A stretch of 64,000 bases of DNA. Source: Porphyrobacter sp. AAP82. GTDB lineage: Bacteria; Pseudomonadota; Alphaproteobacteria; Sphingomonadales; Sphingomonadaceae. Below, piece after piece: positions 48,991 through 63,579 of this stretch; the stretch's first letter is position 1; each line of letters begins with the position of its first letter. The stretch covers positions 59,007 to 123,006 of the forward strand of contig NZ_ANFX01000014.1 in NCBI RefSeq assembly GCF_000331285.1, read 5' to 3'. Under the pieces are notes generated by a model. It was not told the DNA's origin. It saw only the letters and a list, made by a program, of their open reading frames with translations, and did not search any database. Both the position numbers and the translations under genes were made by a program.

Positions 48991-49116
48991 GACGCGCCCC
49001 GGCCCCCGCGTCCAGACTGACGTTAGGGAAGGCCCGGCCGCCATTCTCACATTGCCAAGCGCCCCCCGAATCGCTAGTGCGCCGCTTCCGTCCGGGGCAT
49101 CGTCCCCGGAAGGCTC

Positions 49117-49190
49117 GGCCCGATGGCGGAGTGGTGACGCAGCGGACTGCAAATCCGTATACGCCGGTTCGATTCCGGCTCGGGCCTCCA
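49117..49190 (+). tRNA. tRNA-Cys (GCA anticodon)
   Basis: The 74-base gene has acceptor stem GGCCCGA/TCGGGCC, anticodon loop CTGCAAA (GCA) and encoded CCA. It lies 57 bases upstream of the broken tRNA-Thr. Confidence 0.95.
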
Positions 49191-49247
49191 CATCTTTTTG
49201 CGATTGCGAACCTGCGGCCATCAGCCTAGTTCGCGCAAACCGGAAAT

Positions 49248-49287
49248 GCCGCTTTAGCTCAGTCGGTAGAGCACATCATTCGTAATG
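49248..49287 (+). pseudogene. tRNA-Thr(CGU) 5' half, cut by island insertion
   Basis: Forty bases match a tRNA-Thr from the acceptor stem GCCGCTT through the D arm to the anticodon loop TTCGTAA, and then the sequence departs from a tRNA. Joined to the half at 63544-63579 it would give an intact 76-base tRNA with the stem CATCA/TGATG. Confidence 0.88.
49276..49287 (+). other. attL core repeat
   Basis: This copy of TCATTCGTAATG coincides with the anticodon loop and adjoining stem bases of the host tRNA-Thr. It is identical to the copy at 63532-63543. Confidence 0.85.
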
Positions 49288-49348
49288 TGTTGGCGAAACC
49301 TCAAAAAATCGCAGAAAACCAATTATTACAGTGGATTGAGTGGCCTTG

Positions 49349-49376
49349 CTGTAGTATAGTTTTTCCTATACAACAG
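49349..49376. promoter_or_regulatory. Inverted repeat before the integrase, candidate arm-type binding site
   Basis: CTGTAGTATAG and CTATACAACAG face each other across 6 bases, with one mismatch, ending 4 bases before the integrase ATG. The motif CTATACAACA recurs at 63474 and 63486, and GTTGTATAG at 50903, as expected for integrase or Xis binding sites. It may also act as an int operator. Confidence 0.5.
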
Positions 49377-49380
49377 CATC

Positions 49381-50718
49381 ATGTCTCAAGCTGCTAAGAA
49401 GCCTGCGAAAAGTCGTGTTAACACGACCAAGCGACACCGCACTCAGCCCATCCCCAGTTCGCTGCAAAAGGTGTCGGGCTATGGGACTCTCACGATCTAT
49501 CAGATGGAAGCATCGCCGTTCTGGTATGCGCGGTATTACGAAGACGGAAAAATCGTGCGGCGCAGCTTGAAGGTCGCGGACAAAAAGGAAGCGATCAAAG
49601 CAGCGAAAAAGGTCTTCGTGGACCTCAAGCATCGCAAGATGAACAATCTGCCCTTCACGAAAGCCAGCGGCTTTGAAGTGTGCGCTCGTGGGCTGCTCAA
49701 GGAAAACGAAGCCCGCGCTGCACGTGGGGAACTGTCAAAGCAGAAGATTCAATACGACACGGCACGGCTGGAATCAGACCTGCTACCGCACTTCGGAAAG
49801 TATGAAGTGGCAGACGTGGATTACGGGGTGATCAGCAGCTACATCAACGGCCTGAGCAAGCCAGATCGGCCGCTGAGTATCAATTCGCTCAAGATCCATC
49901 TCTCGCACATCAAGACGATCCTGAAATACGCTCAACGCATGGGCGTGATCACATCGCTTCCCGCGTTCCCCAAGCTCAAGACAGTGGACAATGCGCGGTC
50001 GTGGTTCAACAGCGGCGAATATGGGGCGCTGCACTCAGTGTGCAGAGCGAACATCGGCAAGTCGGTCACGGTCAGGGCGAAAGACGGCAAGTTCTTGCGG
50101 AACGTGATGATCACGCAGGAGCTCTACGATCTTGTGATCTTCATGCACAACTCGTTCATCAGACCAACGGACGTGAAGGTTTTGCAGCACAAGCATGTGG
50201 CGGTGATACGCGGGAAAGAGACGTATCTGCGTCTGACCCACCCACCCACGAAGAACCATGCTAGCCCCGTCGTCACGCTTGAGATGGCTGTTGAGGTCTA
50301 TGACAGACTGCTTGAGCGTCAGAAGAAGGAAGGGTTTGGCAAACCAGACGACTACCTGTTCCAGCCTGAGCAGAAGAACCGTGACTACGCACTGCGGAAC
50401 CTGTCACGGCAGTTTGATCAGCTACTGAGGCTAGCAAATCTGAAGGAAGCTGCTGGGGGTGAGAGTCGCACTCTCTACAGCCTGCGTCACACTTGCATCA
50501 TGAATCGGCTGATCAAGGGCGATAACATCAGTTTGCTGACGCTGGCTCGCAGTGCGCGGACTTCGGTTGAGATGATTGACCGATTCTACGCCAAGCACCT
50601 GACTGCTGAGATGAACATTGAGCAGCTCCAGAGCAACCGATTTGACCGTGACGATGACGCGGTAAAACCTTCAAAACCCGCTAAATCTCGGCAAACGGCA
50701 CCGCGTAAGAAAAAATGA
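49381..50718 (+). CDS. int: Tyrosine recombinase (island integrase)
   Basis: The 445-residue integrase has an N-terminal arm-binding region (about 30-90), a core-binding SAM-like domain (about 95-195) and the catalytic domain. Catalytic residues are visible as Arg in FIRPTDVK (about 261), Lys in PPTKNHASP (about 291), R-H in YSLRHTC (about 369-370) and the nucleophile Tyr in DRFYAKHL (about 403). The gene starts 93 bases inside attL in the same direction as the host tRNA, so it may be read from the tRNA promoter when integrated. It is followed by the intact island tRNA-Thr. Confidence 0.95.
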   Translation: MSQAAKKPAKSRVNTTKRHRTQPIPSSLQKVSGYGTLTIYQMEASPFWYARYYEDGKIVRRSLKVADKKEAIKAAKKVFVDLKHRKMNNLPFTKASGFEVCARGLLKENEARAARGELSKQKIQYDTARLESDLLPHFGKYEVADVDYGVISSYINGLSKPDRPLSINSLKIHLSHIKTILKYAQRMGVITSLPAFPKLKTVDNARSWFNSGEYGALHSVCRANIGKSVTVRAKDGKFLRNVMITQELYDLVIFMHNSFIRPTDVKVLQHKHVAVIRGKETYLRLTHPPTKNHASPVVTLEMAVEVYDRLLERQKKEGFGKPDDYLFQPEQKNRDYALRNLSRQFDQLLRLANLKEAAGGESRTLYSLRHTCIMNRLIKGDNISLLTLARSARTSVEMIDRFYAKHLTAEMNIEQLQSNRFDRDDDAVKPSKPAKSRQTAPRKKK

Positions 50719-50777
50719 CAGGCCATTGCCTGTGAGGGCTAGAAAAATCAGAGCGATCAAGCTAGATGCCCCTCGTT

Positions 50778-50853
50778 GCCGCTTTAGCTCAGCTGGTAGA
50801 GCATCGCATTCGTAATGCGGGGGCCACAGGTTCAAGTCCTGTAAGCGGCACCA
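50778..50853 (+). tRNA. Intact tRNA-Thr (CGU) carried by the island
   Basis: The 76-base gene folds fully: acceptor GCCGCTT/AAGCGGC, D arm, anticodon stem TCGCA/TGCGG-type with loop TTCGTAA, T arm ACAGG/CCTGT and encoded CCA. It differs from the interrupted host copy in the anticodon stem, variable loop and T stem, so it is not a simple duplication. It supplies the ACG-reading function that insertion destroys. Confidence 0.96.
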
Positions 50854-50983
50854 TTAATCCCCGAAAATCAGTAACTTTTCACTGATGGTGCTCAACTGAT
50901 CAGTTGTATAGCTGTGTCTCATTCAAGACGGCATCAGGGAGAGCATCGCTCCCCCTGATTAGCATTTAGAAGCAATGTCAGTT

Positions 50984-51397
50984 CTAGCGTTTGATGCACG
51001 AAGTGATCGCTGCATCAAGCTCACCAGCAGCGGTAGCGGCATAGATCGCCTGCAGCGCAGCAGGCACATCGGAAAGCTGTTTCACAAAGACAGCATTACC
51101 ATCCTTGCTCAATGCAAGTGCCTTAGCACCATACTTGCATTGCACGTAGAATCCACCGTCTTGTGCGAAGAACCACAAGCGCACCACCTTCTGTCGCTGC
51201 ACACGCACCTTCTCGCCAGCTTCGTTTTTGCCCCAGCGAGACAGTGTGACCGTGTATTCTTGACCACGCATCGCAGCATCAGCGACCTGCAACTGCTCTT
51301 CAATGCCAGCAAGCAGCTTGTTGCGACGGGCTTCAATAGGGCTGAGCTTGGTCTGACGAGAAACGGTCTTGATGGTCAGTTTTGCAAGGGGCGACAT
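50984..51397 (-). CDS. Small conserved protein, possibly DUF6641
   Basis: The 137-residue protein starts MSPLAKLTIKTVSRQTKLSP and includes PIEARRNKLLAGIEEQLQVADAA and VQRQKVVRLWFFAQDGGFYVQCKYGAKAL. This pattern recalls DUF6641 proteins found on phages and islands. It is soluble, and the function is unknown. A GGAG site precedes both an ATG at 51397 and a GTG at 51403; I use the ATG. A poor hairpin at about 50934-50956 follows the gene. Confidence 0.72.
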   Translation of the reverse strand: MSPLAKLTIKTVSRQTKLSPIEARRNKLLAGIEEQLQVADAAMRGQEYTVTLSRWGKNEAGEKVRVQRQKVVRLWFFAQDGGFYVQCKYGAKALALSKDGNAVFVKQLSDVPAALQAIYAATAAGELDAAITSCIKR

Positions 51398-51483
51398 ATT
51401 CACATTCTCCTTTTTCCTAGAATGCGAATCTGAATCCTTGCCTCTGATATTCCTACCGAATTCCAGCCATTGAAGCGGTCCTT

Positions 51484-51501
51484 ACTTAAAACTTTTAAGT
51501 T
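51484..51501. promoter_or_regulatory. Island operator palindrome, copy 1
   Basis: ACTTAAAA-C-TTTTAAGT is a 17-base palindrome followed by T. It lies about 62 bases before the 578-residue gene and about 87 bases before the divergent small gene. It matches copies at 58110 and 63399. Confidence 0.72.
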
Positions 51502-51562
51502 CGCACGATGCTGTTGCAACGGCGATATCGGATGGTAGCTTGCATTCGCGGAAGGGGGCGCA

Positions 51563-53299
51563 ATGGCAAACGAGCAGGAACTGAGTCAGCAGCTTCAAGC
51601 GTTACAAGACAGGGCTGAGCAACAGCATAATCTTGCCGAAAGCTCCCGCGAACTCCTGCATCGCAATCTTGCTGAGACTTATTTCTGGTGGCGTGAGGCT
51701 CGCAACGAAGCTGGCTATCTTGATCGCCTCTATGCCGAAAACAACATCACCTATCGCAACACAGGAAATCGCTATAATTTCAGCCCTGTCGTTCGCCTAG
51801 CTTTCCCACGCATTCGCACAAATGATGTGACGGTTCACAATTACAGCAAGGCGTTGTGGGCAATTGACAATGAGTATGACGCTCACCGTCAACGTTACGA
51901 TAACCCGTCAAAAATCAACGTGATCAAGGCCTTCATTCACGAGAATGGGGGCGTTGATGGATTGAAAGAGCTGGTGCGTGACGCAGTAGATGGCGAACCA
52001 GACTTAAGTGCAGCGATCAGCAAGAAGGCTACAAAATCCAAAGCTCTTAGTGAGGATGCTGCGCTTCTGAAGCGTTCTGAAGAGCGCAAAATCCTTAAGA
52101 ATAAGACGCACCTGCTGAAAGCGTCCAAAGGCTTTGCAACAGTTGATGCTGGTGCGTTAGCGGCAACGAGTGATGATCTTGTCGTGCTACTGGCTAAGCG
52201 TAGCAAGCGGACGGGCAAAATTACGCTGATTGCCTCCACCACAGATGCCGAAATCGTTGAAGCAGTTGTCAATGAATGCGGTGAGCTTGATCTGAGCAAC
52301 ACGCCGCCAATCCTGCGACTGCTCATTGAGTGCCTTCGCCCGCACATTGTCCCGCATCTGATCCACAAGCTCGGACTGCGCGGTAAGTTCTATGATGAGC
52401 ATAAGATCGGTTGGGACGACATTGCCGACAAGGCGATCATGCGACCTGAAAGGGTGCGCTTGGTTATCAGGGCAGATGGGTCAATCTTAGTCAGCAAGAT
52501 TCTGAGTGATGCCAGCCTGACGACCGTCTCAACGCCAAAAAATCCGATCGCAGTGCCATGCGACATTCTGCTTCGCGGCAATGATCGCAACTGGATTGAA
52601 ACCGTCTTGATGAATGAAGCGCAGCTACCACTGATTAGCTGCGAACCGAGCGACACTCTTGCAGATGCTGACGAGGACAAGAGTGCCATCAAGCAGTTGA
52701 AGCTGGTCAGTCAGTCCTCAGGCCACACAAGGAACATCTACTTTTACGAAACGGACCTGATCAAAGATGCTCATAGCTATCAGCCGATGCTCGTTGACGA
52801 TGCCATTGGCTACGCATGGGAGATTAAGGCGAAAAAGAAGTTCATTGATCGGTTCTACAGGCAGTCAGTTCAGGCGTGGCTGAATGGCTATGGGAAGCAC
52901 TTTAGACACAAGAAGGCATCTCGGATTGGCTTCATAGTCGGAGCTGATCATCTAGAGCTTCAATCCCATTTTGAGAGCAGCGACACACCTGGCGTGAACG
53001 AAGATGGATTCACGCACTACGGAGATGACTGCAAAACGCTTGTGCAACGTGATGCGGTCATCACGCTGGAGCCAGCGATGAAGCACAAAACCATCGTAGC
53101 TCCATTGGATATCATTGAGCTTTTCACGATGTTGGCGAAGGCGCAGACGGTCGGTGATGAGGTCATAATCAGGGGTAACGATCTTGTTCTGAACGTCAGC
53201 TACGAGACTGCGACCGCAACCCACGAAGCATACATTCCTGCGCTTGATGAGCGCGGAAATCGCAACGATGCGTTGTTTGTTAGATACAACGATGCGTGA
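51563..53299 (+). CDS. Uncharacterised 578-residue protein, partner of the TGT-fold enzyme
   Basis: The protein is soluble and hydrophilic. The N-terminal 60 residues are Gln/Glu-rich and helical (ELSQQLQALQDRAEQQHNLAES, with a coiled-coil look). A central region has alternating basic and acidic stretches (SEDAALLKRSEERKILKNKTH), and a C-terminal half contains IVPHLIHKLGLRGKFYDEHKIGW and PIAVPCDILLRGNDRNW. I recognise no known domain. The stop overlaps the start of the TGT-like gene by 8 bases, which signals a functional pair. DpdB-type partners of DpdA are the obvious comparison, but no ParB-like motif is seen. Confidence 0.85.
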   Translation: MANEQELSQQLQALQDRAEQQHNLAESSRELLHRNLAETYFWWREARNEAGYLDRLYAENNITYRNTGNRYNFSPVVRLAFPRIRTNDVTVHNYSKALWAIDNEYDAHRQRYDNPSKINVIKAFIHENGGVDGLKELVRDAVDGEPDLSAAISKKATKSKALSEDAALLKRSEERKILKNKTHLLKASKGFATVDAGALAATSDDLVVLLAKRSKRTGKITLIASTTDAEIVEAVVNECGELDLSNTPPILRLLIECLRPHIVPHLIHKLGLRGKFYDEHKIGWDDIADKAIMRPERVRLVIRADGSILVSKILSDASLTTVSTPKNPIAVPCDILLRGNDRNWIETVLMNEAQLPLISCEPSDTLADADEDKSAIKQLKLVSQSSGHTRNIYFYETDLIKDAHSYQPMLVDDAIGYAWEIKAKKKFIDRFYRQSVQAWLNGYGKHFRHKKASRIGFIVGADHLELQSHFESSDTPGVNEDGFTHYGDDCKTLVQRDAVITLEPAMKHKTIVAPLDIIELFTMLAKAQTVGDEVIIRGNDLVLNVSYETATATHEAYIPALDERGNRNDALFVRYNDA

Positions 53300-54638
53300 T
53301 CTAACTGACCGATACGAGAAGTATGCCGTCTACCTGCCATCGTTGCAGCAGCACTACGCTGAGTTTGCCACGAAGGATCGCGGCGATGTTCGTCAAGGCC
53401 GCATACCGCGTAATTTTCGCCCTAACGACTTAGACTTTCTATCGCCAGACAGTCGGCTGTGGTCATGCAAATATGCGCTCTACAGCTCAGGGCAGTTTGA
53501 GAAGGCATTCGTCACAACTGACGACATGGTGATCAATCGCAAACGTGAGGGGGTCATCGTCGTTGGCGACAGCGGTGGCTATCAACTCGGCTCAGGTGCG
53601 ATCAAGAGCAAGCGGGAGAAGGAAGCGATCTATCGCTACGCTGAATCGCCGCAGGATTTCTATGCAAACTGGTTCATGACAGGATACCGCGAACGGGTTC
53701 TGAACTGGCTAGACGCATACACCGACTATGCGATGACATTGGATCTTCCTCTCTGGGCTAGCACGGAAGCGAAACCCACGAGCACCAGCCCCATTCGCAA
53801 TCTCAGCATCAAGCAGTTGATTGATCTTAGCGTTGATAACCTGCGCTATTTTCAAGAGAACAGGGCAAGGAATTTCAGCGGAGAAGGCACGAAGTTTCTC
53901 AATGTCATTCAGGACATTGAGCAGGTAGGCGCTGGCGATCTGTGGTATGATGCGGTCAAAGATTTTGAGTTTGAAGGCTGGGCATTTGGTGGCAGATCAT
54001 CGTTGCTCAGGAACATGCTCAGACGGCTCAGGACCATGCTGGATGAGGATAAGCTGAAACGCACAGAGGTCATTCACCTGCTAGCTAAGTCTCCCCCCAT
54101 TCAATCCGTCATCTACACCGCGATCCAACAAGCAGTGTCCAAAGCTGCTGATCGTCCCATTCGCTTCACGTATGACAGCAGCTCACCGCATCGTGCATCG
54201 GGTATGAGCAGAGCGATTTATCACAAGCCAGACCTTACGAGCGATCTGCGCTCATGGAGAATGCCGTCACGACAAATTCCGCAAAACATGCAGGTTGCAC
54301 GTGGAAACGTCAGAGTGGACTTGCCTGAATTTTCGCCGCTCTCACGCATTTTCAACGTAAATCACATTGTTTTTCATAAACAAGCGAACAGGTTTGGCCG
54401 AGTTGATAATCTCGGCGAACACCTGATGACCAATCACAACATCTACACTTTCCATGCGACTGCGCTGGAAGCGTGTGATCTGGTTTTCGGTGCAAAGCCT
54501 GACGGCAGCAGAGTGCCATTAGTTTTGCAGGAGCTAGTCAGCTTCGTGAACGTGTTTTTTGAGAACGGCGGATCAGAGCAGCTAATTTCGGACAATGCGA
54601 AATTGCTGGATGTTTTTGATCCGCCGCCCAAACCGTAA
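53292..54638 (+). CDS. TGT-fold enzyme lacking the zinc site (DpdA-like 7-deazaguanine transferase candidate)
   Basis: The 448-residue protein has the (beta/alpha)8 TGT pattern at the expected spacing. D93 and Y97 are in GDSGGYQLG (compare D102/Y106 of Zymomonas TGT), D151 in TLDLP, Q207 in NVIQDIE, and GWAFGG at 229-234. HLLAKSPP lies at 262, and D295 in FTYDSSSPHR would be the nucleophile (compare D280). The CxCxxC...H zinc site of tRNA-modifying TGT is absent. Such enzymes swap guanine for a 7-deazapurine in DNA (DpdA) or RNA. The start at 53292 overlaps the upstream stop; an in-frame start at 53244 is less likely. Confidence 0.85.
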   Translation: MRDLTDRYEKYAVYLPSLQQHYAEFATKDRGDVRQGRIPRNFRPNDLDFLSPDSRLWSCKYALYSSGQFEKAFVTTDDMVINRKREGVIVVGDSGGYQLGSGAIKSKREKEAIYRYAESPQDFYANWFMTGYRERVLNWLDAYTDYAMTLDLPLWASTEAKPTSTSPIRNLSIKQLIDLSVDNLRYFQENRARNFSGEGTKFLNVIQDIEQVGAGDLWYDAVKDFEFEGWAFGGRSSLLRNMLRRLRTMLDEDKLKRTEVIHLLAKSPPIQSVIYTAIQQAVSKAADRPIRFTYDSSSPHRASGMSRAIYHKPDLTSDLRSWRMPSRQIPQNMQVARGNVRVDLPEFSPLSRIFNVNHIVFHKQANRFGRVDNLGEHLMTNHNIYTFHATALEACDLVFGAKPDGSRVPLVLQELVSFVNVFFENGGSEQLISDNAKLLDVFDPPPKP

Positions 54639-54657
54639 AACTTTGTAAAGTCTGATG

Positions 54658-54966
54658 CTAAGATACGTCAGCAGTTTGCACCAATATGCTGCCGTCGGGT
54701 TCAAACCAGTTTGCTCGTGCTTTGCGTTCTGCGACGGTGGCAATCTTACTGATGTTGCTGCGATATGCCTCAATCAGTTGCTCGGCTTGTGAATGTGATG
54801 ATCGGGTAAGATCGTTCAGAGCCTCACGAGATACAGCGCAGTTGACCCTTTTCCCGTCAAGCGTCGCCCAAACAAGACAGCTTCGCGGCTCGGATCGTGC
54901 CGCACATAATCTTGGTCTAACTGGAATGACATTCCGCGCTCCACTGAACTTTTGCCTCAGACACAT
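54658..54966 (-). CDS. Small protein, possibly DUF1488-like
   Basis: The 102-residue protein contains CLVWATLDGKRVNCAVSREALNDL and a C-terminal AYRSNISKIATVAERKA region that resembles DUF1488. The ATG at 54966 is chosen; a TTG at 55029 would overlap the upstream gene. It is convergent with the TGT-like gene, 19 bases away, and follows the 101-residue gene. Confidence 0.6.
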   Translation of the reverse strand: MCLRQKFSGARNVIPVRPRLCAARSEPRSCLVWATLDGKRVNCAVSREALNDLTRSSHSQAEQLIEAYRSNISKIATVAERKARANWFEPDGSILVQTADVS

Positions 54967-55009
54967 ATAGGTCTGCAAAAGCGCATTTGCATCGCCAGCC
55001 CAGAGCAAA

Positions 55010-55315
55010 TTACACCAGCTCCAGTTCAACTGCTTCTTGATTGACTAGCTGGTGGCAGCGTTCGCTAAGTTCAAGAAAGCGAATGCCTACGTGGCGATGG
55101 CTTGGGGATGACATAATCTGCTCGCCAGCCTTCTGAAGTCTGCTTGCACAAATTGCGACAACGCCCATGCTCGGCTCAGTGCGTTTGAAGCGCAGACCAC
55201 GATAATAGCTATCGCACTGCCCAAGCCATCCCTCAGAGAACTCGCTTTCGCTATCAACAATTCCACGCTGTTTCAAAAAATCAAATATCTCCAAAATTAC
55301 TGTATTTTTCTTCAT
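55010..55315 (-). CDS. Small protein, possibly DUF6626
   Basis: The 101-residue protein, with KQRGIVDSESEFSEGWLGQCDSYYRGLRFKRTEPSMGVVAICASRLQ (in parts), recalls the DUF6626 family of small alphaproteobacterial proteins, which may be HTH-like. The ATG at 55315 follows a weak ribosome binding site in an AT-rich gap. Confidence 0.65.
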   Translation of the reverse strand: MKKNTVILEIFDFLKQRGIVDSESEFSEGWLGQCDSYYRGLRFKRTEPSMGVVAICASRLQKAGEQIMSSPSHRHVGIRFLELSERCHQLVNQEAVELELV

Positions 55316-55902
55316 TTATGTTTCCCTGTGATAAATAAACTTATCAGAAGATCATCTGATTAGTATTTATCTGTGAGACAGAGGGATGGGTCAGTAACCT
55401 AGTCACATTCTCTCTGTTAAATCATAGGGCTCTATTGTTGCGTTGAGGTAGCCAGCTTGCTGTAGCCATCAGAACTCGCAGCCCAGTAAGCGTGATCACA
55501 GACACGCAATACGACAAGCAAAGCCGCAACTGGCTTGTAAAACATTATGTGGTAGAGCAAGATATGAGACTGTAAAAACAGTAACTTGTATGCGTCTTAT
55601 GGGTGAATGATTGGTTCCTAAGGCGTTGCGTTGCGAACAACTCACCGCACGTAAAGGTAACAGCGTAACCTTATCTCCCATTCAGTTTTTAGCTGAAAGG
55701 TTGTGTGCAATCATAGGCTAAACGACTCAACGAAAAGTACGGAAGTCTCAGTGAGGCGGAAGCCTCACTGTGGCATAGATCTAACGAAATGTACCAACCC
55801 AATAAAATCAAAATCGCTGATGCAGGTGTGAGCAGAGCGAAGCGATGTGAAGCACGGTAGAAAGCGAATGTGGAACAGCGAAGCTGGAACGCATTGAATG
55901 AT
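55316..55902. other. 587-base non-coding AT-rich gap with a strong hairpin
   Basis: I see no convincing gene here. A 9-bp perfect stem CAGTGAGGC/GCCTCACTG closed by a GGAA tetraloop lies at 55749-55770. Other parts have short repeats of GAAGC and AGCGAAG. An open frame at 55689-55934 on the minus strand has no ribosome binding site. The hairpin could belong to a structured RNA or terminate transcription from the membrane protein gene at 55903. Confidence 0.5.
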
Positions 55903-56397
55903 TCAAAACAGGCGTTTGTCAGCAGAATATGCAAGCGATAAGAATGTAGGAACAGATATCCCGTTTATGCACAAAACCAAAAAGAACTCTTTGCTTATAA
56001 AGAAATTAAACTGCTCCAGAGGGTCATCTGGGAATATTACATCGTACACGATAAAGCCTGACGCAATGCTGCATATTGCACAGATAACTGCTCCAAAAAT
56101 CCTTATCTTTTGAAAAAAATTATCAAATTTCAATTCTGGATCAATGTCGGCGAAACTCAGTTCAGGTTTTCCATCAATATTAGGCTTCAAACTTGATAAA
56201 AAGTAACTTCCCGAAATGGCAGCAATCGCAAGCAAAGAATACCCGAGGTAAGGCATTCCGAGTCCAGCAGCTTCCCTTACATCACCCATTTCAATCTCGT
56301 ATGAAATCGGTCGGTAGAGGACTCCAACCCAAAGCCAGAAAAAACTATAGAACCTGCAAAAATCCCATAATGCATGATTGAATTTTCTCTCTCTCAT
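55903..56397 (-). CDS. Hypothetical membrane protein
   Basis: The 164-residue protein has four hydrophobic segments (FCRFYSFFWLWVGVLY, LGYSLLAIAAISGSYFL, IFGAVICAICSIASGFIVY and FFLVLCINGISVPTFLSLAY), with a hydrophilic loop between the second and third. The ATG at 56397 has a strong GGAGG site 8 bases before it. It lies 17 bases downstream of the serine recombinase gene. No family is recognised. Confidence 0.75.
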   Translation of the reverse strand: MRERKFNHALWDFCRFYSFFWLWVGVLYRPISYEIEMGDVREAAGLGMPYLGYSLLAIAAISGSYFLSSLKPNIDGKPELSFADIDPELKFDNFFQKIRIFGAVICAICSIASGFIVYDVIFPDDPLEQFNFFISKEFFLVLCINGISVPTFLSLAYSADKRLF

Positions 56398-56414
56398 GCC
56401 CCCTCCGAATCTTC

Positions 56415-56996
56415 TTATATATTGGACGCTAATGCAGAATATACCGTGTTTGGGCTGACTTTCACCTCTTTGCAGATAGCACGGATAGAAGCCCCATTGC
56501 GCTTCATCCATTGAATTTTTGCGATCTGCGCTTCCGTCGTGGGCTTGCGACCGAAGCGCACTCCCCGCTCTTTCGCTTTCCTGATCCCGACAATCTGACG
56601 CTCTTTGCGGATCGTGTTTTCAAACTCGCTGAAGATCCCCAAAAACTGGAAAAACATGGACCCCATCGCAGTGCTGGTATCAATGGCCTGCTTGTAGCTG
56701 AAGATATCAATCTTGCTGTCTTTCAACTCGGTCAGCACCAGGACGAGATTTCGCATTGAGCGCCCCAAGCGATCAACGGACCACACAACCACTTTCTCAA
56801 AGCGACGGAGCTTGGCGTCGTGCATCATGCGCTTCAGCTCTGGGCGATCTTCAGTCGCTTTTGTCCCGCTGATCTTCTCGCTGTATACCTCAACGACCTC
56901 CCAACCCGATCGTTCAGCGAGAGCATTCAGTTCCTCAAGCTGGCCTTCGTAATTCTGATCTGTCGTTGACACTCGTGCGTAGATCGCCACCTTCAT
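56415..56996 (-). CDS. Serine recombinase (resolvase/invertase family)
   Basis: The 193-residue protein has the catalytic domain with the nucleophile Ser10 in YARVSTTDQ, EKISGTKATEDRPELKRMM, VVVWSVDRLGRSMR (conserved Arg), and FSEFENTIRKERQ. A C-terminal HTH follows (IQWMKRNGASIRAICKEVKVSPNTVYSAL, in parts). Full length is that of Hin/Tn3-type small recombinases. It may resolve or invert island segments. An inverted repeat at 57014-57053 upstream could be its target site. Confidence 0.93.
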   Translation of the reverse strand: MKVAIYARVSTTDQNYEGQLEELNALAERSGWEVVEVYSEKISGTKATEDRPELKRMMHDAKLRRFEKVVVWSVDRLGRSMRNLVLVLTELKDSKIDIFSYKQAIDTSTAMGSMFFQFLGIFSEFENTIRKERQIVGIRKAKERGVRFGRKPTTEAQIAKIQWMKRNGASIRAICKEVKVSPNTVYSALASNI

Positions 56997-57013
56997 CTCA
57001 AAAGCCCCGTTAT

Positions 57014-57053
57014 CCTAAGTGTAGAAATAATAGCGTATAGCCAGCCACTTAGG
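57014..57053. repeat. Inverted repeat upstream of the serine recombinase
   Basis: CCTAAGTG at 57014-57021 and CACTTAGG at 57046-57053 are exact inverted copies separated by 24 bases. They sit 18 to 57 bases before the recombinase start and may form its regulatory or crossover site. Confidence 0.4.
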
Positions 57054-57133
57054 ACCGAAAGCCTTGCGTCACCTCAGGCCGAGAATTTGGGGATTTTTGG
57101 AGGGACTAAAAAATAACGGCAATGCAGCACTGG

Positions 57134-58063
57134 TCATTTGCGCGGGTGAGCGCACATCGGTTTGACGCTGCAAAGCTGACAGGTCGGAAATGTCTCTGTG
57201 CAAATCGTTCTGACGAACCCATTCACCTCGTCAGGCTCCTGCCCTAGCTTTACGATCATAAAATCTAGCAAGCGCAGTGAGATTCCAGCTTCATCAGCGA
57301 TCCGACGGCATGCGTCTTGTAATGCCCAGTTGAACTCAGGGATTGCCCCGAGATTTGTAGCCCTCGTTGTCGTCACTGGTTTGTTCAAGATGTAGGTCTT
57401 GTCTCCCTTCTTATAGCGATCAATCAGCCCGATCTGGATTGCAATGCGATTCACGACCCGATCTGGCTTGACGACAGGAAATCCCAGCTCGGTCATCAGA
57501 TGGAATGTCGTCACCTCGCCAAATTTCAAAAGATCGTTGAGACGCTTATGAATGATCTTCAGTGATGCAATGTCACTCGTATCTTCAATGTTGCGACAGA
57601 CCCATTGAATGATCGTTTTGTCGGGGTGTTGCCGCATTGTGGCAGTGACATTGTTCGCTGCGACAATGACGGTCGTCAGGTTGTCAGCGTGCCTGAAGCA
57701 GTCCTCGTCATCCATGAACTCCTCAAACCGCTCGCGGCCAGGGTTCCATGCCGCAGAATTCAACTCTGTTCTGTCACCAAGGTAGGAGTCCAGCATATAA
57801 TCATTTCGGGCCTCAACGGCACTCGCAAGGTGTCCCGCATAAAATGGCTTGGTAGCAGCGGTACGCCAGAACGTGTCATCGGACATGTTGCGATCAAATT
57901 TCAGCGCATCCATTTCGGCGAAAACGGCTTCAAGCTGAGCGCATCGGTTTGTAACGATTTCGGGGCTGACTTCCCGCTCAGTCCGTGACCGCGAAGTCGC
58001 TCGTTCCAGCAACGTTTTCCGCAATACTGCTACAAACTCTTTTGCCTTGCCCTGCTCAATCAT
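57134..58063 (-). CDS. HhH-GPD superfamily DNA glycosylase-like protein with 4Fe-4S loop
   Basis: The 309-residue protein has an HhH-GPD-like core: NDLLKFGEVTTFHLM at the hairpin, followed by TELGFPVVKPDRVVNRIAIQIGL, with Asp201 at the catalytic position. A C-terminal C288-x6-C295-x2-C298-x5-C304 set matches the endonuclease III/MutY cluster. The usual lyase Lys of the HhH is not obvious, so it would be a monofunctional glycosylase if active. It is controlled by operator copy 2. Which base it removes is unknown. Confidence 0.82.
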   Translation of the reverse strand: MIEQGKAKEFVAVLRKTLLERATSRSRTEREVSPEIVTNRCAQLEAVFAEMDALKFDRNMSDDTFWRTAATKPFYAGHLASAVEARNDYMLDSYLGDRTELNSAAWNPGRERFEEFMDDEDCFRHADNLTTVIVAANNVTATMRQHPDKTIIQWVCRNIEDTSDIASLKIIHKRLNDLLKFGEVTTFHLMTELGFPVVKPDRVVNRIAIQIGLIDRYKKGDKTYILNKPVTTTRATNLGAIPEFNWALQDACRRIADEAGISLRLLDFMIVKLGQEPDEVNGFVRTICTETFPTCQLCSVKPMCAHPRK

Positions 58064-58109
58064 GCGCTTGCCCCCTGACTGCTTTTCCTGAGTGTGGCTC
58101 GGCTTTATG

Positions 58110-58130
58110 AAACTTAAAAGTTTTAAGTTT
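58110..58130. promoter_or_regulatory. Island operator palindrome, copy 2
   Basis: AAACTTAAAA-G-TTTTAAGTTT is a perfect 21-base palindrome midway between the divergent HhH-GPD gene (46 bases away) and the small gene at 58141 (10 bases away). It is the longest of the three copies. Confidence 0.78.
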
Positions 58131-58140
58131 CAGGAGCGGA

Positions 58141-58311
58141 ATGATGACGCAAGCAAGACAGTGGTGGATTTTGGTTCGCTACAAGGATGAGGCAGGAGCA
58201 GGCTTCGGGAAGCAGTATGTCACAGCGACCAACGCTTATGAGGCAATTCAGATGGCGAAGGCTTTATATGGGAAGCTGCTCATTTCCGAGAGTGCTGCGC
58301 CAGCGCTGTAA
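58141..58311 (+). CDS. Small protein (56 residues), divergent from the HhH-GPD gene
   Basis: The frame from ATG 58141 to TAA 58311 reads MMTQARQWWILVRYKDEAGAG and ends in a helix with AYEAIQMAKALYGKLL. The ribosome binding site CAGGAGCG is 6 bases upstream and directly next to the operator. The product looks folded, with beta strand, strand and helix. It ends exactly where the minus-strand gene at 58312 ends. No family is recognised. Confidence 0.65.
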   Translation: MMTQARQWWILVRYKDEAGAGFGKQYVTATNAYEAIQMAKALYGKLLISESAAPAL

Positions 58312-58506
58312 TCACCCTTGCAAAATATCAATCAATGCGCCTGTCTTGTCGTCAACGGCGCGGGCTTTTCTAGACTTTGAAGCGAGTTGCGTCTTCAAAG
58401 CTCTCTGCAGAGCTAACTTGATAGATGTGTCTGTAGCCGACACGGTTTGAAAACGCTGCCATCGCCCAAACTGGTCCTGGACTTCAATCCGCGCCGTTTT
58501 GCTCAT
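58312..58506 (-). CDS. Small hypothetical protein (64 residues)
   Basis: The protein MSKTARIEVQDQFGRWQRF continues as TVSATDTSIKLALQRAL and TGALIDIL. It has a strand-helix-strand look similar in style to the small neighbour at 58141. The ATG at 58506 is preceded by a GGGTGA-type weak site. It lies 6 bases after the next gene upstream on the same strand. Confidence 0.6.
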   Translation of the reverse strand: MSKTARIEVQDQFGRWQRFQTVSATDTSIKLALQRALKTQLASKSRKARAVDDKTGALIDILQG

Positions 58507-58512
58507 CAAATG

Positions 58513-58992
58513 TCACCCTAGCTCCAGTGAAAAACTGTTTTGCAACCAGAGATGCTGAAGAAACTCTCTCTCGGCTTTGCCATGTCTCCATGCAAACCCA
58601 CTTGTGCGAAATAGACCAAGCTCAGATTCAATCTTTATGAAATTAATTGATGATATATTTTTATTCTCAGATGACAAAGATAAAATTGTGAAATCTCTTG
58701 ACCAATAAAAATCCCACCATTCTTCAATATCCATATATCGTTTTAGCATTTCATTATGCGTTTCAATTCTATTAAATAAATGAGATCTGTTTATCTTAAT
58801 GCCATCTCTAATCCACCCATTTTCTTTAAAAGCCATAAGGGCGTTAGGAGTTATTCCTTCAACTCTCCAGCAAAACGGATTTTGACTAAACAATTCAGTT
58901 ATCATCCGATGTTTTATCTTATTTGATGAAATCATATTATTTATTTGAAGAAAATCATGATATAGAAGCTCAATAATTTTTTTATCTAGCAT
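58513..58992 (-). CDS. AT-rich hypothetical protein
   Basis: The 159-residue protein is very AT-rich in codon use (many Ile, Asn, Lys and Phe), unlike its neighbours. It has EEWWDFYWSRDFTIL and SGFAWRHGKAEREFLQHLW. It overlaps the end of the DUF2779 gene by 11 bases, so it is coupled to it. The role is unknown; it could be an accessory or immunity protein. Confidence 0.7.
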   Translation of the reverse strand: MLDKKIIELLYHDFLQINNMISSNKIKHRMITELFSQNPFCWRVEGITPNALMAFKENGWIRDGIKINRSHLFNRIETHNEMLKRYMDIEEWWDFYWSRDFTILSLSSENKNISSINFIKIESELGLFRTSGFAWRHGKAEREFLQHLWLQNSFSLELG

Positions 58993-60904
58993 GGCCGAAT
59001 TCCTCAATATAAAATGATCTCTGAATCCAGCTCTCTGCGATCATTGCCATCGCTAGTGTGTCCAACTCGCAGTATCGCTTGAGACTGGCTTCAACAGCGT
59101 CACGCTGCCTTTGGCGCAAATCTGGATCTTGAAGCTGACCGTATGCCATGGCAGCCTCACCGCCCTCTGCAATCCCACCAGCATCGGAGATTTGAGAGGC
59201 AAGTCCACGCAGAATCTTGTAGGGATCTTTGGGTTTTCCGTCTTGATCTGCTTGCCACCACGCAATTCCGTCATAGTTCTTGCTAGGGATGCCATCTTGA
59301 GCGCCATAGATCGGCTTGGAGTATCGCTCCCTGAGATAAGCTGAGCTGGAAAGCGCGGCAGGTAGCACTTGCTTGATTGAATTGCCGCCTTTGGTCGCGG
59401 GATGAAAATAACCTTCTTCGGCGATTTTTTTCAGATCAACCATCTGTCGGTCGCCGCCTTTCACCAAGCGACCTATGAAATCGCTCAGTTCTTCCGCATC
59501 AGCAGGAGCGTCATCACGAGAATGAAGCTGTTTGTGGATGTGCTCCAGGATCGTGTTTTCATGTGCGGCCCAGCAGAACACGGTGCCGTCGTCGGCCTCT
59601 AATGCGTGCTTGAGAGCTCGGACGAATTCAAAGTTTGGAAACTGTCCTACCCGAGCGAGGAGAAACTCATCAGCATGGCGAAGCTTGCCATCGCTCTCCA
59701 GAATATGATGGGAGAACTGAAAGGCGACGCTTTCAAAAGGCTTCATTCCAATATGGAACGGCAGAGCAGGAGCACAGGTCTCAAAGTCAATGAAGTGCAG
59801 AGGATAGCGCCAGCTCTCCATCTGCCGCGACATGTAGCTCTCATGGATGAAATAGCCGCGCTTCATGTGGGGCGCGGGTAGACCGTTGATCTGAAACCAC
59901 TGACGTTCGGATGGGCTCAAACGATCAGCAAGCGGCGCATAGCCAATGTCTTCCTGCGTGACGCCGCTGAGAGCGCGCTTGCCACTTTGGATGAGGCGCT
60001 CTTTTCCGCGAAAGTTCCAGAGATCAAGAACCGTAGCTTCTGGAAAGTCATCATCAGACCATCCGTTGGCCTCCTTCCAGCATTCATGAAAGCCGCTGCT
60101 TAAGGAGCTACCTTTCTCGGCTTTGAACTCGCATGATGCGCAGTGGCTGCCTATCGGGGCTTCAATGACCTCTCCGCTCACATATGCCTGCGCCCATCTC
60201 TCAGCCACATTAGGCAAAAGCCCCTCGCCACCAGGAAATCTGATCGGTTCATTCAGGATGGTTTCAACATACTGATCAACGGGTATTTTGCTTAGCAGAG
60301 ATTTCTCAAAGCCAATGCCCGCTGCCTCGCTGCGAGGCACAACCCGTTTACCGTCTGAACCAATTGGGAAAAGCTGGTTCATCTGATCAAGCGTCGCAGC
60401 ACGGGCCTTGTCGGGCATCATCAGATAGCTGCGGATCTCTGCGTCTGGAAAACACAGGCGCAGAACATAGGTCTGGAAGGCTATGTCTTGGAGATATGGA
60501 AGGTAGGCAGCTGATGGCTTGCCATTGACCCCTAACGATGCGGGCTTACTGGAATCATAGGATTTTGCTTTGACCTCTATGATTTCAAGGCTGTTACCTC
60601 GCTTTATCAGGATATCGCATCTGATCAGAAACTGCCCGTGCGTGAAGGCGGGCTCAAAAATCGTTACCTCGTCGTTACGCAGCAACTCGCCAGTTTTGGC
60701 TAGCGCAGCAGACGGAAGGACGCCTTCTAGGTCTATCCCGTCAGGGAAAAGCTGCTTGGCTAAAGCGCCAACCTGAAAGCCTGATGCAGCGAGTGATTTC
60801 AAAAATGCATTTTCGGCACTGGCATCTTTATACAAGTCGCTGCCCGCGTAAGACAGCTTACGCGGGCAAGTGACAGATAAAGTGAAAAGCGACTTTGTTA
60901 TCAC
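58982..60904 (-). CDS. DUF2779 nuclease-like protein (PD-(D/E)xK plus DEDD-like domain)
   Basis: The 640-residue protein has Cys13 in CPRKL, D97 in RCDILI and E110-x-K112 in EIIEVKAKS, the pattern of a Cas4/RecB-type nuclease. C255, C258 and C275 (SHCASCEF and HECWKE) complete a putative 4Fe-4S cluster. The C-terminal DUF2779 part starts at HFIDFETCAPALPF with the D-x-E pair of DEDD exonucleases, then FCWAAHENTIL and DLKKIAEEGYFHP. It could process DNA in defence or repair. A partial paralogue of its first 85 residues lies at 61897-62176. The start is GTG. Confidence 0.85.
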   Translation of the reverse strand: MITKSLFTLSVTCPRKLSYAGSDLYKDASAENAFLKSLAASGFQVGALAKQLFPDGIDLEGVLPSAALAKTGELLRNDEVTIFEPAFTHGQFLIRCDILIKRGNSLEIIEVKAKSYDSSKPASLGVNGKPSAAYLPYLQDIAFQTYVLRLCFPDAEIRSYLMMPDKARAATLDQMNQLFPIGSDGKRVVPRSEAAGIGFEKSLLSKIPVDQYVETILNEPIRFPGGEGLLPNVAERWAQAYVSGEVIEAPIGSHCASCEFKAEKGSSLSSGFHECWKEANGWSDDDFPEATVLDLWNFRGKERLIQSGKRALSGVTQEDIGYAPLADRLSPSERQWFQINGLPAPHMKRGYFIHESYMSRQMESWRYPLHFIDFETCAPALPFHIGMKPFESVAFQFSHHILESDGKLRHADEFLLARVGQFPNFEFVRALKHALEADDGTVFCWAAHENTILEHIHKQLHSRDDAPADAEELSDFIGRLVKGGDRQMVDLKKIAEEGYFHPATKGGNSIKQVLPAALSSSAYLRERYSKPIYGAQDGIPSKNYDGIAWWQADQDGKPKDPYKILRGLASQISDAGGIAEGGEAAMAYGQLQDPDLRQRQRDAVEASLKRYCELDTLAMAMIAESWIQRSFYIEEFGHAR

Positions 60905-60927
60905 TATTTTACGAAACTTATTATAAA

Positions 60928-61386
60928 TCAGGAAAGCTTAAACAGACCGATGTCACGCCAATGTTCGGGGTTTTCTTTATCATATCCTTGAATATATGAT
61001 GAAAAACCCCTATAACTCCCGCCAAGATATTCAACTCCGAGAATCTTTAGCTTATTTTTCTGATTTAAGTACGCTTCGGCGCCAGATCTTATTTTTACAG
61101 AAAGGGACCCCTGAACTGATACAGACAAACCTGACCCATCTGCAATTAAATCTATATAAAAATTATCTTTTGATTTTTTGTCGCATTGTTTGAATTCAAA
61201 CTTTACAGAATCATAGGGATCGTCTTCTTTATATGTAACAATAACAAGACACATCTGACCCTTATCTATATCGCTAAGATATTTTATTGCGTCTTCGCCT
61301 TTTAAAAAAACATCCTCAAAGTCCTCAGTCACCCAAAAGCCATCGGTTTTGAAGTGCTCATCTAACTCAATTGAAAGTTTGGCCAT
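60928..61386 (-). CDS. AT-rich hypothetical protein between DUF2779 and the Y gene
   Basis: The 152-residue acidic protein (KLSIELDEHFKTDGFWVTED, then LIADGSGLSVSVQGSLSVKI) is AT-rich. An AGAGGA site precedes the ATG. It occupies the same place in its cassette as the unrelated 147-residue gene at 62184 does in the other. No domain is recognised. Confidence 0.72.
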   Translation of the reverse strand: MAKLSIELDEHFKTDGFWVTEDFEDVFLKGEDAIKYLSDIDKGQMCLVIVTYKEDDPYDSVKFEFKQCDKKSKDNFYIDLIADGSGLSVSVQGSLSVKIRSGAEAYLNQKNKLKILGVEYLGGSYRGFSSYIQGYDKENPEHWRDIGLFKLS

Positions 61387-61464
61387 TTAGGTATCCTCTG
61401 TCTGTGGTATTATGATCGGTCAAAACCTCGCACTCCGCATTGATGCATTAGCATCATAAGCCAG

Positions 61465-61845
61465 TCAAGAATTGACATTTTTTCGGTTATGAGGATGATG
61501 TTGCGGCATAGAAAACGCAAGAAAAGCCGACTGCACCTCGCCCGTTGAGCGGCAATGGGCAAGCTGCTCATTCGTCACACCAAGAATGCGCTCGGCTTCA
61601 GCAGTAGGCGGTCTTGACGGCCTCGCCCATTCGTCAAACACGTCATCTTCATCCCAGCGATTGACCGCATAGAAGTGAATGATTTCGCCCTTCTCAGGCG
61701 TGAGCGCACTCGTCTCAAGCTCAATGATCAGATCCCGTTTCAGGCCATGATTGCCCGCGAGATAGAGCTCCAACCCACCCTGCATGTAGAGTTCAAACAA
61801 GCTGTCATGCAGCAGCTTCTGGCTTTGGCTTAGCTTGTGATTCAT
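61465..61845 (-). CDS. Hypothetical protein Y, intact copy
   Basis: The 126-residue protein begins MNHKLSQSQKLLHDSLFELY and has LYLAGNHGLKRDLIIELETS and IHFYAVNRWDEDDVFDEW. Its first 31 residues are nearly identical to the truncated copy at 62756-62893. It overlaps the remnant of gene X by the same ATGA-style junction seen in the complete copy. Function is unknown. Confidence 0.75.
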   Translation of the reverse strand: MNHKLSQSQKLLHDSLFELYMQGGLELYLAGNHGLKRDLIIELETSALTPEKGEIIHFYAVNRWDEDDVFDEWARPSRPPTAEAERILGVTNEQLAHCRSTGEVQSAFLAFSMPQHHPHNRKNVNS

Positions 61846-61896
61846 CTGGCTATCGCCTTCGCCGCTTTGCGAAACGCAACCTCATCATTCTGCGCT
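61842..61896 (-). pseudogene. Gene X 3' remnant
   Basis: Fifty-five bases match the end of gene X (62890-62944): the frame would read AQNDEVAFRKAAKAIAR and then stop. The 140-base block 61757-61896 aligns without gaps to 62805-62944. It joins abruptly to the DUF2779 head at 61897. Confidence 0.8.
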
Positions 61897-62176
61897 GCGT
61901 GAAGGCGGGCTCAAAAATCGTTACCTCTTCGTTACGCAGCAACTCGCCAGTTTTAGCCAATGCAGGCTGTGGAAGGAGGCCGTCTAGGTCTATGCCATCA
62001 GGGAAAAGCTGCTTTGCTAACGCCCCGATCTGAAAGCCTGATGCAGCGAGTGATTTCAGAAATGAATTACTAGCACTGGCATCGTGATAATTCGGATTGC
62101 CCGCGTAGAAAAGTTTACGCGGGCAATCAATTCCACGTGCAAAGTCTGATTTGCTGAGTTTTTTCTTATATATCAA
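61897..62176 (-). pseudogene. DUF2779 gene head, truncated duplicate
   Basis: About 93 residues match the start of the intact DUF2779 protein (CPRKL, then FLKSLAASGFQIGALAKQLFPDG and TGELLRNEEVTIFEPAFT), starting from a TTG. The match ends at the junction with the gene X remnant and the frame closes in a short basic tail. It keeps only the first Cys of the cluster and none of the nuclease residues, so it is a remnant. Confidence 0.82.
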
Positions 62177-62183
62177 GATGTAA

Positions 62184-62627
62184 CTACTTCAAACCTTTTA
62201 TGTTCTTTGCAGTCTTGACGGGTATCAAATAGTTGGTCTCAGTTTGGGTTCCCCTAAACGATTTAACTTCGTATTCTTGAGATTCCAAACCCTCAATTGC
62301 GCCTTCAACATCGGAGGCGGAGCCAAAAACCCACTTTGATTTAGGATCAAGAAATTGATCTACATAATTGGACTTTACGTTAATTTTTGCGACAAAATCA
62401 CAGTTTACAACGACTGTGTCTCCATTCGGCTCAATTTCCAGAGCTCCTTCCTGAATATTGTCGTCGGAGATCTCAAATTTAATACCGATGTTTGGAGTTT
62501 CAGGCTGAAAAATGTTGATTTCAAGAAACTTTCTATATGCTTTTTCTAGTTTTTTAGCAGGAGTGTCTTCACCTTCGCATCTTGCAATTATAAATTTAGA
62601 GGATGCAGCGATAAACATTGCAGGCAT
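62184..62627 (-). CDS. AT-rich hypothetical protein in the first cassette copy
   Basis: The 147-residue acidic protein (KFIIARCEGEDTPAKKLEKAY, then IKFEISDDNIQEGALEIEPNGD) has beta-rich content and an AGGAG site before the ATG at 62627. It has no visible similarity to the gene in the same position of the second cassette (60928-61386). The role is unknown. Confidence 0.72.
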   Translation of the reverse strand: MPAMFIAASSKFIIARCEGEDTPAKKLEKAYRKFLEINIFQPETPNIGIKFEISDDNIQEGALEIEPNGDTVVVNCDFVAKINVKSNYVDQFLDPKSKWVFGSASDVEGAIEGLESQEYEVKSFRGTQTETNYLIPVKTAKNIKGLK

Positions 62628-62755
62628 ATTTCTCTCCTGTTTGGCTAATCAAAATGAAGGTGCCTAGCCTATTCCGCTGATAATCTAGCGGTTCGTTTTA
62701 TGAACGTCAAGCCTTGACGTATTTTTGATTTTGTGAATTATATCTTCTCCAATTC

Positions 62756-62893
62756 TTACTGCCAAAAGCATGAACGCCGCGTGCCATCGTAGTCATGAGC
62801 GCCAGCGAGATAAAGTTCCAAGCCACCCAGCATGTAGAGTTCAAACAGACTGTCGTGCAGCAGCTTCTGGCTTTGGCTTAGCTTCTCGTTCAT
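62756..62893 (-). pseudogene. Protein Y, truncated copy
   Basis: A 45-codon frame matches the first 31 residues of protein Y (NEKLSQSQKLLHDSLFELY) and then runs into unrelated sequence and a stop. Its start overlaps the gene X stop (ATGA). It was probably cut by the insertion or rearrangement that brought in the 147-residue gene. Confidence 0.78.
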
Positions 62894-63336
62894 CTGGCGA
62901 TTGCCTGTGCAGCTTTGCGAAACGCAACCTCATCATTCTGCGCTCCATAAACATACCCACGCAAAGCTCTTTGCTGATCAGCCAGCGATGGATCAGCCTG
63001 ACGAATTCCCTGCTGAATTGACGAAAGCTCCTTAGAGCGTTCCTCAGCGTCTTTCTGGACGCTTGGGGTATCAGTGCTGCTTGCTGGACGCTTTCGCTGC
63101 TGAGGACCTTTCACAGGAGCGGATTTCGGCGGTTTCGTTTTACGGGGTTGCTTCTGGCTCGCTAACTGAACGCATCGTTGCTGAAAGACCGTCCCCAACT
63201 GCGATGTGCCAGCCAGCAATATGTCCATCGCCAGCTTCACTCTATCGCTGCCTGCCTCGCGAGCCATGGCCACCACTGCGATGACTGCCTCTCGCAGTAG
63301 CTCAATCTCATCATTTCCCTTTTTCTCAGTGCCCAT
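62890..63336 (-). CDS. Hypothetical protein X, intact copy
   Basis: The 148-residue protein has a helical N-terminus (IELLREAVIAVVAMAREAGSD), a Lys/Pro/Ser-rich disordered middle (KQPRKTKPPKSAPVKGPQQRK in parts) and a helical C-terminus (RQADPSLADQQRALRGYVYG). The ATG at 63336 is preferred to a GTG at 63345. It is the first gene after operator copy 3. No family is recognised. Confidence 0.7.
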   Translation of the reverse strand: MGTEKKGNDEIELLREAVIAVVAMAREAGSDRVKLAMDILLAGTSQLGTVFQQRCVQLASQKQPRKTKPPKSAPVKGPQQRKRPASSTDTPSVQKDAEERSKELSSIQQGIRQADPSLADQQRALRGYVYGAQNDEVAFRKAAQAIAR

Positions 63337-63398
63337 CAGATACACCCTTTCTGATTATATTTATCGTGCGGGCATGGTAGCGCAGGGGGCAAGGAGCG

Positions 63399-63417
63399 AA
63401 CTTAAAACTTTTAAGTT
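63399..63417. promoter_or_regulatory. Island operator palindrome, copy 3
   Basis: AACTTAAAA-C-TTTTAAGTT, a perfect 19-base palindrome, is 62 bases before the gene X start. It matches copies 1 and 2. Confidence 0.75.
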
Positions 63418-63473
63418 TGGTCGCTCTGACATGGGCCAGAAACGTTGAAAAACCTCGCTTTTTAGCGTAATGA

Positions 63474-63495
63474 CTATACAACAAACTATACAACA
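63474..63495 (+). repeat. Direct repeats of CTATACAACA near attR
   Basis: The 10-base motif occurs at 63474-63483 and 63486-63495 with a 12-base period, and again at 49366-49375 at the other end. They are probable arm-type sites for the integrase or an excisionase. Confidence 0.5.
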
Positions 63496-63531
63496 ATGCG
63501 GTCTAGAGCTTGGATTTGCGTTGTTTGTATG

Positions 63532-63579
63532 TCATTCGTAATGATGGGGTCACGTGTTCGAGTCACGTAAGCGGCACCA
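63532..63579 (+). pseudogene. tRNA-Thr(CGU) 3' half with attR core
   Basis: The first 12 bases are the attR repeat. Positions 63544-63579 complete the anticodon stem, variable loop, T arm (CACGTG-TTCGAGT-CACGT) and acceptor of the host tRNA-Thr with CCA. It is separated from its 5' half by the island. Confidence 0.88.

Follow-up and report, generated by a model that had tools for sequence, protein, structure and literature searches.

Results

The gene pair

In a 64,000-nucleotide stretch of the Porphyrobacter sp. AAP82 genome (contig NZ_ANFX01000014.1, hereafter the window), two overlapping genes lie on the plus strand within a 14,256-bp integrative element (Table 1). The downstream gene encodes an enzyme that is likely related to DpdA2, a 7-deazaguanine transglycosylase of phages, while the upstream gene encodes a protein, here called the partner, for which modelling predicts a sliding clamp of the PCNA type. 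An earlier reading of the letters of the window (the original prediction) had described the pair as an enzyme with the fold of tRNA-guanine transglycosylase (TGT) lacking a zinc site, overlapping a 578-residue protein by 8 bases, and the coordinates of the open reading frames (ORFs) agree with this. The length of 448 amino acids given for the enzyme is counted from an ATG; its longest ORF begins with a TTG at 53244 and spans 464 codons. Sequence searches at E 1e-3 or better returned 818 homologues of the enzyme and at least 29 of the partner, the latter a lower bound as only the 7,999 candidates sharing most words were scored. Given these numbers, chance ORFs are rejected as an explanation of the pair.

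Neither protein was recognised by Pfam, PADLOC or NCBIfam at E up to 0.5. PHROGs gave a single non-significant match to the enzyme (E 0.2), direct sequence searches of the PDB with both proteins returned nothing at E 1, and profile searches of the PDB yielded chance-level matches only. PF01702 did not match the window enzyme (E 0.5), nor was it among the families matched by the 36 and 29 members of the two enzyme alignments described below. The enzyme also fell below the cut-off of the DpdA model NF041059, which had no match in its own genome.

The predicted model of the enzyme is nevertheless a TGT-type (beta/alpha)8 barrel, as originally proposed, and its best matches in the PDB are tRNA enzymes, with 13–16% identity in the structure alignments. 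Residues D93, D151, Q207, G229 and D295 line up with TGT motifs and are invariant in all 36 aligned homologues, although two finer points of the proposed active site are looser. Residue 97 is F in 22 homologues and Y in 14, and the GWAFGG loop tolerates changes in its second half, as G233 and G234 vary in a second, wider alignment that includes phage relatives (n = 29). W230, G233 and G234 occur in 34, 33 and 25 of the 36 homologues, and in 26, 15 and 24 rows of the wider set. The latter retains D93, D151 and G229 throughout, Q207 in 27 rows (H in locus L031, S in phage Paride) and D295 in 28, the single gap being the broken ORF of L036. The zinc motif CxCxxC was absent from every row of both alignments (0/36 and 0/29), whereas the controls retained it in 7/7 bacterial TGTs and 2/2 DpdAs of NF041059; in DpdA2 it was found in none of eight rows, five of which were partial.

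Profile–profile comparison with hhalign aligned the enzyme with DpdA2 at 93.6% (E 2.1e-7) with matching active-site motifs. An ordinary TGT of the queuosine pathway was rejected as its identity, the genome having a separate TGT. On this basis, the enzyme is likely a relative of phage DpdA2 that acts as a 7-deazaguanine transglycosylase on DNA. Relatives were found in 13 phage records and one plasmid record, and the matched phage and plasmid records (13, 1 and 22 records) all list the family as "hypothetical protein".

The predicted model of the partner places a two-domain PCNA-type clamp fold at residues 246–567, unlike the three-domain beta clamp of bacteria. The original prediction knew of nothing that this protein resembles, which the library families bear out; its predicted fold, however, includes a clamp. 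No match to the partner was found in the phage and plasmid records, and among 385 genomes of the class it was full length only in its own, four further matches covering the N-terminal domain alone. A domain resembling these 240 residues makes up the C-terminal end of longer proteins in three further genomes (L158, L159 and L160, around positions 1501–2100), and two of these proteins have weak PAS_5 matches. In genome G604 (L161:313-4051), an integrase-like gene is accompanied by a stand-alone N-terminal-domain protein of 247 amino acids and a TGT-like enzyme.

Linkage of the pair across genomes

The partner lies directly upstream of the enzyme in 32 of 39 genome loci, including L025, where its ORF is open at the contig start. 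The seven loci without it are either cut at a contig end (L015 and L040) or of phage type (L032, L034, L035, L037 and L039). In 30 of the 31 pairs that could be measured, the partner stop lies no more than 26 nt from the estimated start of the enzyme, the exception being L016 with 597 nt. The five phage-type loci stand in records labelled as bacterial or archaeal metagenome-assembled genomes (e.g., Pacearchaeota, Euryarchaeota), and are probably misbinned phage contigs.

Relatives in phages

Relatives of the enzyme occur in at least 597 viral stretches. The best 80 of these were used for locus counts, and gene families were assigned by testing representatives. In 77 of the 80, the enzyme gene is preceded at a distance of no more than 1.4 kb by a clamp-like gene (phrog_12062) in the same orientation; those without it are L059 and two loci where the enzyme is near a contig end (L079 and L106). 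Homologues of the clamp-like protein occur in 43 phage records, named "sliding clamp" in Phosso, "proliferating cell nuclear antigen" in PAC2 and "structural protein" in two others, with most of the remainder "hypothetical" or unnamed. The viral loci also encode a family-B DNA polymerase (69/80), FolE-type (46), phosphoribosyltransferase-type (37) and QueE-like proteins (30). A further cluster (47, in 67 of the 80 loci) was considered as QueD-like and dropped, as two representatives lacked any QueD-type Pfam or NCBIfam match. No clear QueC was found in the 13 phage records, of which 12 may be fragments, beyond one partial 24.7-bit match.

A recurrent block was seen across L041–L120, comprising the polymerase, the clamp-like protein, the TGT-like enzyme, two small proteins (~175 and 130–160 amino acids), a possible glycosyltransferase, FolE, the phosphoribosyltransferase and the QueE-like protein; it may make a further modified 7-deazaguanine. 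In phage Paride (L142:11995-13614), the enzyme-family gene, listed as hypothetical, stands beside a clamp-like gene, a DNA polymerase and a gene named QueE-like, and the gene 3′ of it has a weak Pfam glycosyltransferase match.

The C-terminal tail of the phage enzymes resembles that of the polymerases from the same loci. A strict form of the tail motif is present in 50 of 78 phage enzymes (mean 0.72 and maximum 4 in 200 shuffles) and a relaxed form in 64, compared with 35 and 61 of 64 polymerases, and 19 and 89 of 1,236 other plus-strand ORFs; the truncated L084 and L105 were excluded. The accessible text of PMC2988020 describes T4 gp43, gp55 and gp33 as binding the clamp via hydrophobic–acidic C-termini of such a kind. 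A tree of 66 rows places the phage enzymes in a single group (98/93) and the cellular enzymes outside it, except for G604, whose long branch falls with the phages; the length of the DpdA2 outgroup makes rooting unsafe.

The integrative element and its cargo

The element splits a tRNA-Thr(CGU) gene and brings a complete copy of it. An 11-base core from the anticodon region recurs at 49277, 50807 and 63533, and ARAGORN calls tRNA-Thr(cgt) when the two halves are joined. Together with the integrase, the split target tRNA at both ends identifies a site-specific integrative element. Its GC content is 0.488, compared with 0.662 in the 10 kb to its left, and an Rfam scan of 49000–64000 found two tRNAs and nothing else. 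Among the 32 related loci, 11 have one tRNA each, which lies near the integrase or the pair in L014, L016 and L023. A second, small tyrosine recombinase (PF00589 in 2/2 representatives) accompanies the pair in 25 of the 32, and was not seen in the window's own element. The pair recurs as a common component of related integrative elements, and not of a modification–restriction operon.

Table 1. Features of the element and its boundaries (positions in the window). Locus counts, here and in the text, refer to the 32 paired loci, which include no more than 10 kb to either side and are in some cases cut, and are lower bounds.
Feature	Position	Strand	Remarks
Left boundary	49247..49287	+	5′ half of interrupted tRNA-Thr(CGU), core 49277-49287 at its end
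Tyrosine integrase, 445 aa	49381..50718	+	Pfam PF13102, phrog_1 integrase; homologues in 17/32 loci
Complete tRNA-Thr(CGU) inside element	50778..50853	+	ARAGORN and Rfam; contains 11-base core
DUF6641 protein, 139 aa	50984..51403	-	Divergent from pair; homologues in 23/32 loci
Partner, 578 aa	51563..53299	+	N-terminal helical domain ~1-240; predicted PCNA-type sliding clamp ~246-575
TGT-fold enzyme, 448 aa	53292..54638	+	Likely DpdA2-related 7-deazaguanine transglycosylase; zinc motif missing
DUF1488 protein	54658..55029	-	Just 3′ of pair; 0/32 loci
DUF6626 protein, 101 aa	55010..55315	-	Homologues in 9/32 loci
Serine resolvase/invertase, 193 aa	56415..56996	-	Cargo; 4/32 loci
OGG-like DNA glycosylase-type protein, 309 aa	57134..58063	-	PADLOC OGG 8.5e-7 over 39 residues; cargo, 3/32 loci
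DUF2779 protein, 640 aa	58982..60904	-	Nuclease-like in the original prediction; cargo, 0/32 loci
Right boundary	63533..63579	+	3′ half of interrupted tRNA-Thr(CGU)

Two side observations concern the cargo. The DUF1488 protein has a weak ThsB-like match in PADLOC (E 1.1e-3), which is likely due to chance. By eye, a 108-amino-acid ORF at 61850–62176 on the minus strand looks like a shortened, nearly identical copy of the N-terminal part of the DUF2779 protein, as though the cargo end of the element had been duplicated and had then decayed.

Substrate supply

No member of the preQ0 synthesis set (FolE, QueD, QueE, QueC) was found among the 14 of the element's 16 ORFs that were scanned with Pfam. 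The host genome encodes TGT, a full-length QueC and QueF. The search for these genes covered 32 genomes, namely this one and 31 reached via the loci (L025, L036, L032, L034, L035, L037, L039 and L040 were unused). In 23 of them QueC matched over its full length (E below 1e-50), and at the looser E 1e-3 it matched in 26.

Discussion

A proposed clamp-tethered base exchange

We propose that the enzyme and its partner carry out clamp-tethered base exchange in DNA, a reading to which we give an even chance of being correct. The computations establish the folds as predicted models, the conservation of the catalytic residues, the linkage of the two genes and the ends of the element; the chemistry, the choice of DNA as target, the tethering and the benefit are inferred from TGT enzymes and phages or proposed here. 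Following TGT chemistry, D295 would attack C1′ of a deoxyguanosine and the guanine would depart with the assistance of D93. A 7-deazaguanine from the queuosine pathway of the host would then enter in its place, whether preQ0, preQ1 or, in a host lacking QueC, a salvaged base. By analogy with the phages, the clamp-type partner would tether the enzyme to DNA, a task that in the phage enzyme would fall to the polymerase-like tail; the enzyme of the element has no such tail, and a clamp-containing partner is encoded alongside instead. The resulting modified DNA, be it that of the element, the host or an incoming molecule, may resist or redirect nucleases, and this would aid the element in passing between cells.

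A number of observations weigh against this proposal, beginning with the clamp itself. The presumed ring-lining helices of the partner are only weakly positive (net charges +1, +3, −1, +4 and −1), and the scanned ORFs of the element (14 of 16, Pfam) include no recognised clamp loader. The partner's clamp half shows weak similarity to the clamp-like family of the phages (hhalign probability 25.8%, score 32.4, with a maximum of 20.3 in 20 column shuffles and 16.1 in a reversed control), as is that of the whole partner (12.1%); it is suggestive of common descent, but short of proof. Pfam, NCBIfam (one member) and PDB sequences do not support the phage family as a clamp: gp45-slide_C matched one of 31 members at E 0.15, beside other chance-level families, PHROGs returned phrog_12062, of unknown function, for all 31 together with one weak match, and a PDB profile search found no clamp. 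The identity of this family as a clamp thus derives from two record names and its position. Since the viral loci are kin to each other, 77 of 80 does not represent 77 independent events. No adjacent clamp-like gene was found in L059, and in phage Phosso the clamp-like gene lies far from that of the enzyme. The polymerase-like tail is missing from the cellular enzymes, where the motif occurs in 1 of 31 in both its strict and relaxed forms (8 cut or phage-type of the 39 genome loci being excluded). In G604, no clamp was seen in the related element, where the contig boundary falls 312 bases past the enzyme stop.

The supply of substrate adds to these difficulties. Nine of the 32 genomes have no full-length QueC match, although TGT is present in all nine, and QueF was found in three of the nine and not in the other six; home-made preQ0 or preQ1 can therefore not be the universal substrate. 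Several of these genomes are drafts, but because seven of the nine are Rhodobacteraceae-type, a salvaged base is likely in the genomes lacking QueC.

Alternative explanations

The occurrence of the enzyme family in phages with family-B DNA polymerase, clamp-like and FolE/QueE-type genes could also be read the other way, as the mark of an anti-phage device. The partner, with its predicted clamp of PCNA type, would then act as a decoy or hijacker of a T4-type replisome, while the enzyme would add a wrong base to phage DNA or remove a protective one, thereby stopping or exposing it. A mobile element with variable cargo would suit such a role. However, the two nuclease-type cargo genes do not accompany the pair in a recurrent way, PADLOC has no match for either protein, and decoy activity is not readable from sequence, and we regard this explanation as unlikely.

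More doubtful is a divergent TGT that acts on RNA, for instance on the tRNA-Thr that the element carries, with the clamp-like partner serving some other purpose. The fold and the tRNA enzymes that head the PDB matches would fit this, but profile similarity is highest with the DNA-linked DpdA2, the phage copies are neighbours of replication genes and in many cases end in a tail of polymerase type, and a partner of clamp type points to DNA.

The original prediction itself envisaged a 7-deazapurine modification and defence system, akin to a Dpd-like restriction–modification island in which the OGG-like and DUF2779 proteins would form a co-regulated restriction arm. Both genes do exist within the same 14.3-kb element, and modified bases could be a target for an OGG-like protein. 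Yet the two genes are encoded on the other strand, with further genes in between, a layout that lends no support to co-regulation, they recur in three and none of the 32 loci, and NF041059 does not class the enzyme as a DpdA. Such an island is very improbable; the original interpretation is partly supported overall, DNA being likely the right target. Least probable of all is a replication aid in which the partner is the processivity clamp of the element and the enzyme a structural part that has lost catalysis, as the PCNA-like fold might allow, given catalytic residues that are invariant over 36 homologues and the lack of any recognised polymerase or loader among the scanned ORFs.

Significance

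Clamp-tethered exchange would bear on how 7-deazaguanine transglycosylases find DNA and on how processive they are. The clamp-type gene in the elements and the polymerase-like tail on their phage cousins each point to an enzyme that rides a clamp. If this is true, base modification of the exchange type would be a replisome-coupled process, and a large family of bacterial and phage genes now listed as hypothetical would gain a likely role. A bolder extension, which we consider improbable, is that phage-satellite-like elements disguise their own DNA as that of a phage: a DpdA2-like enzyme, locked to the element's own PCNA-type clamp and riding on it, would write 7-deazaguanines into DNA during replication, mimicking clamp-tethered T4-type machinery, and the element would thereby survive restriction or be packaged by a phage. 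No earlier description of a clamp-coupled 7-deazaguanine transglycosylase was found in the literature searched, from which most subscription papers were absent, so that the lack of one is unproven.

Comparison with known systems

The proposed system shares parts with several known ones. The two-domain fold predicted for the partner is that of PCNA and T4 gp45-type clamps, from which it differs in its extra helical domain of 240 residues and in an identity of just 6–14% in the listed alignments. In a similar manner, the enzyme has the fold and catalytic positions of the bacterial and eukaryotic TGTs (PF01702), but lacks their zinc motif and is separated from them by its low identity and the absence of a Pfam match. 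The element as a whole recalls the tycheposons in its general layout, in which an integrative element combines a tyrosine recombinase gene with one for a tRNA, as laid out in the accessible text of PMC10872708, a likeness drawn from the layout description only; the window element, with a length of 14.3 kb, is inserted at the anticodon loop.

Closer to the proposed function is DpdA of the bacterial dpd cluster (NF041059), also TGT-like, which introduces preQ0 in DNA according to the accessible text of PMC6884629. It retains CxCxxC, however, and its partner genes differ from those of the window. The jumbo phage PA5oct and its relatives carry the enzyme family just 3′ of the clamp-like gene, and a deazaguanine synthesis and incorporation system has been reported for PA5oct (PMC7824862); the accessible portion of that paper mentions neither coupling to a clamp nor a cellular element. 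DpdA2 of the Vibrio phages nt-1 and KVP40 is distant, in that a search of nt-1 with the enzyme-family profile came up empty and profile–profile comparison was needed, and the annotation of the 21.5 kb surrounding the nt-1 gene includes no clamp. It nonetheless shares the aligned TGT-like motifs (DSGG, D, Q and YDSS) and the absence of CxCxxC, and the DNA of nt-1 carries dG+, dPreQ0 and dADG, from which their insertion by DpdA2 was deduced (PMC6884629, accessible text).
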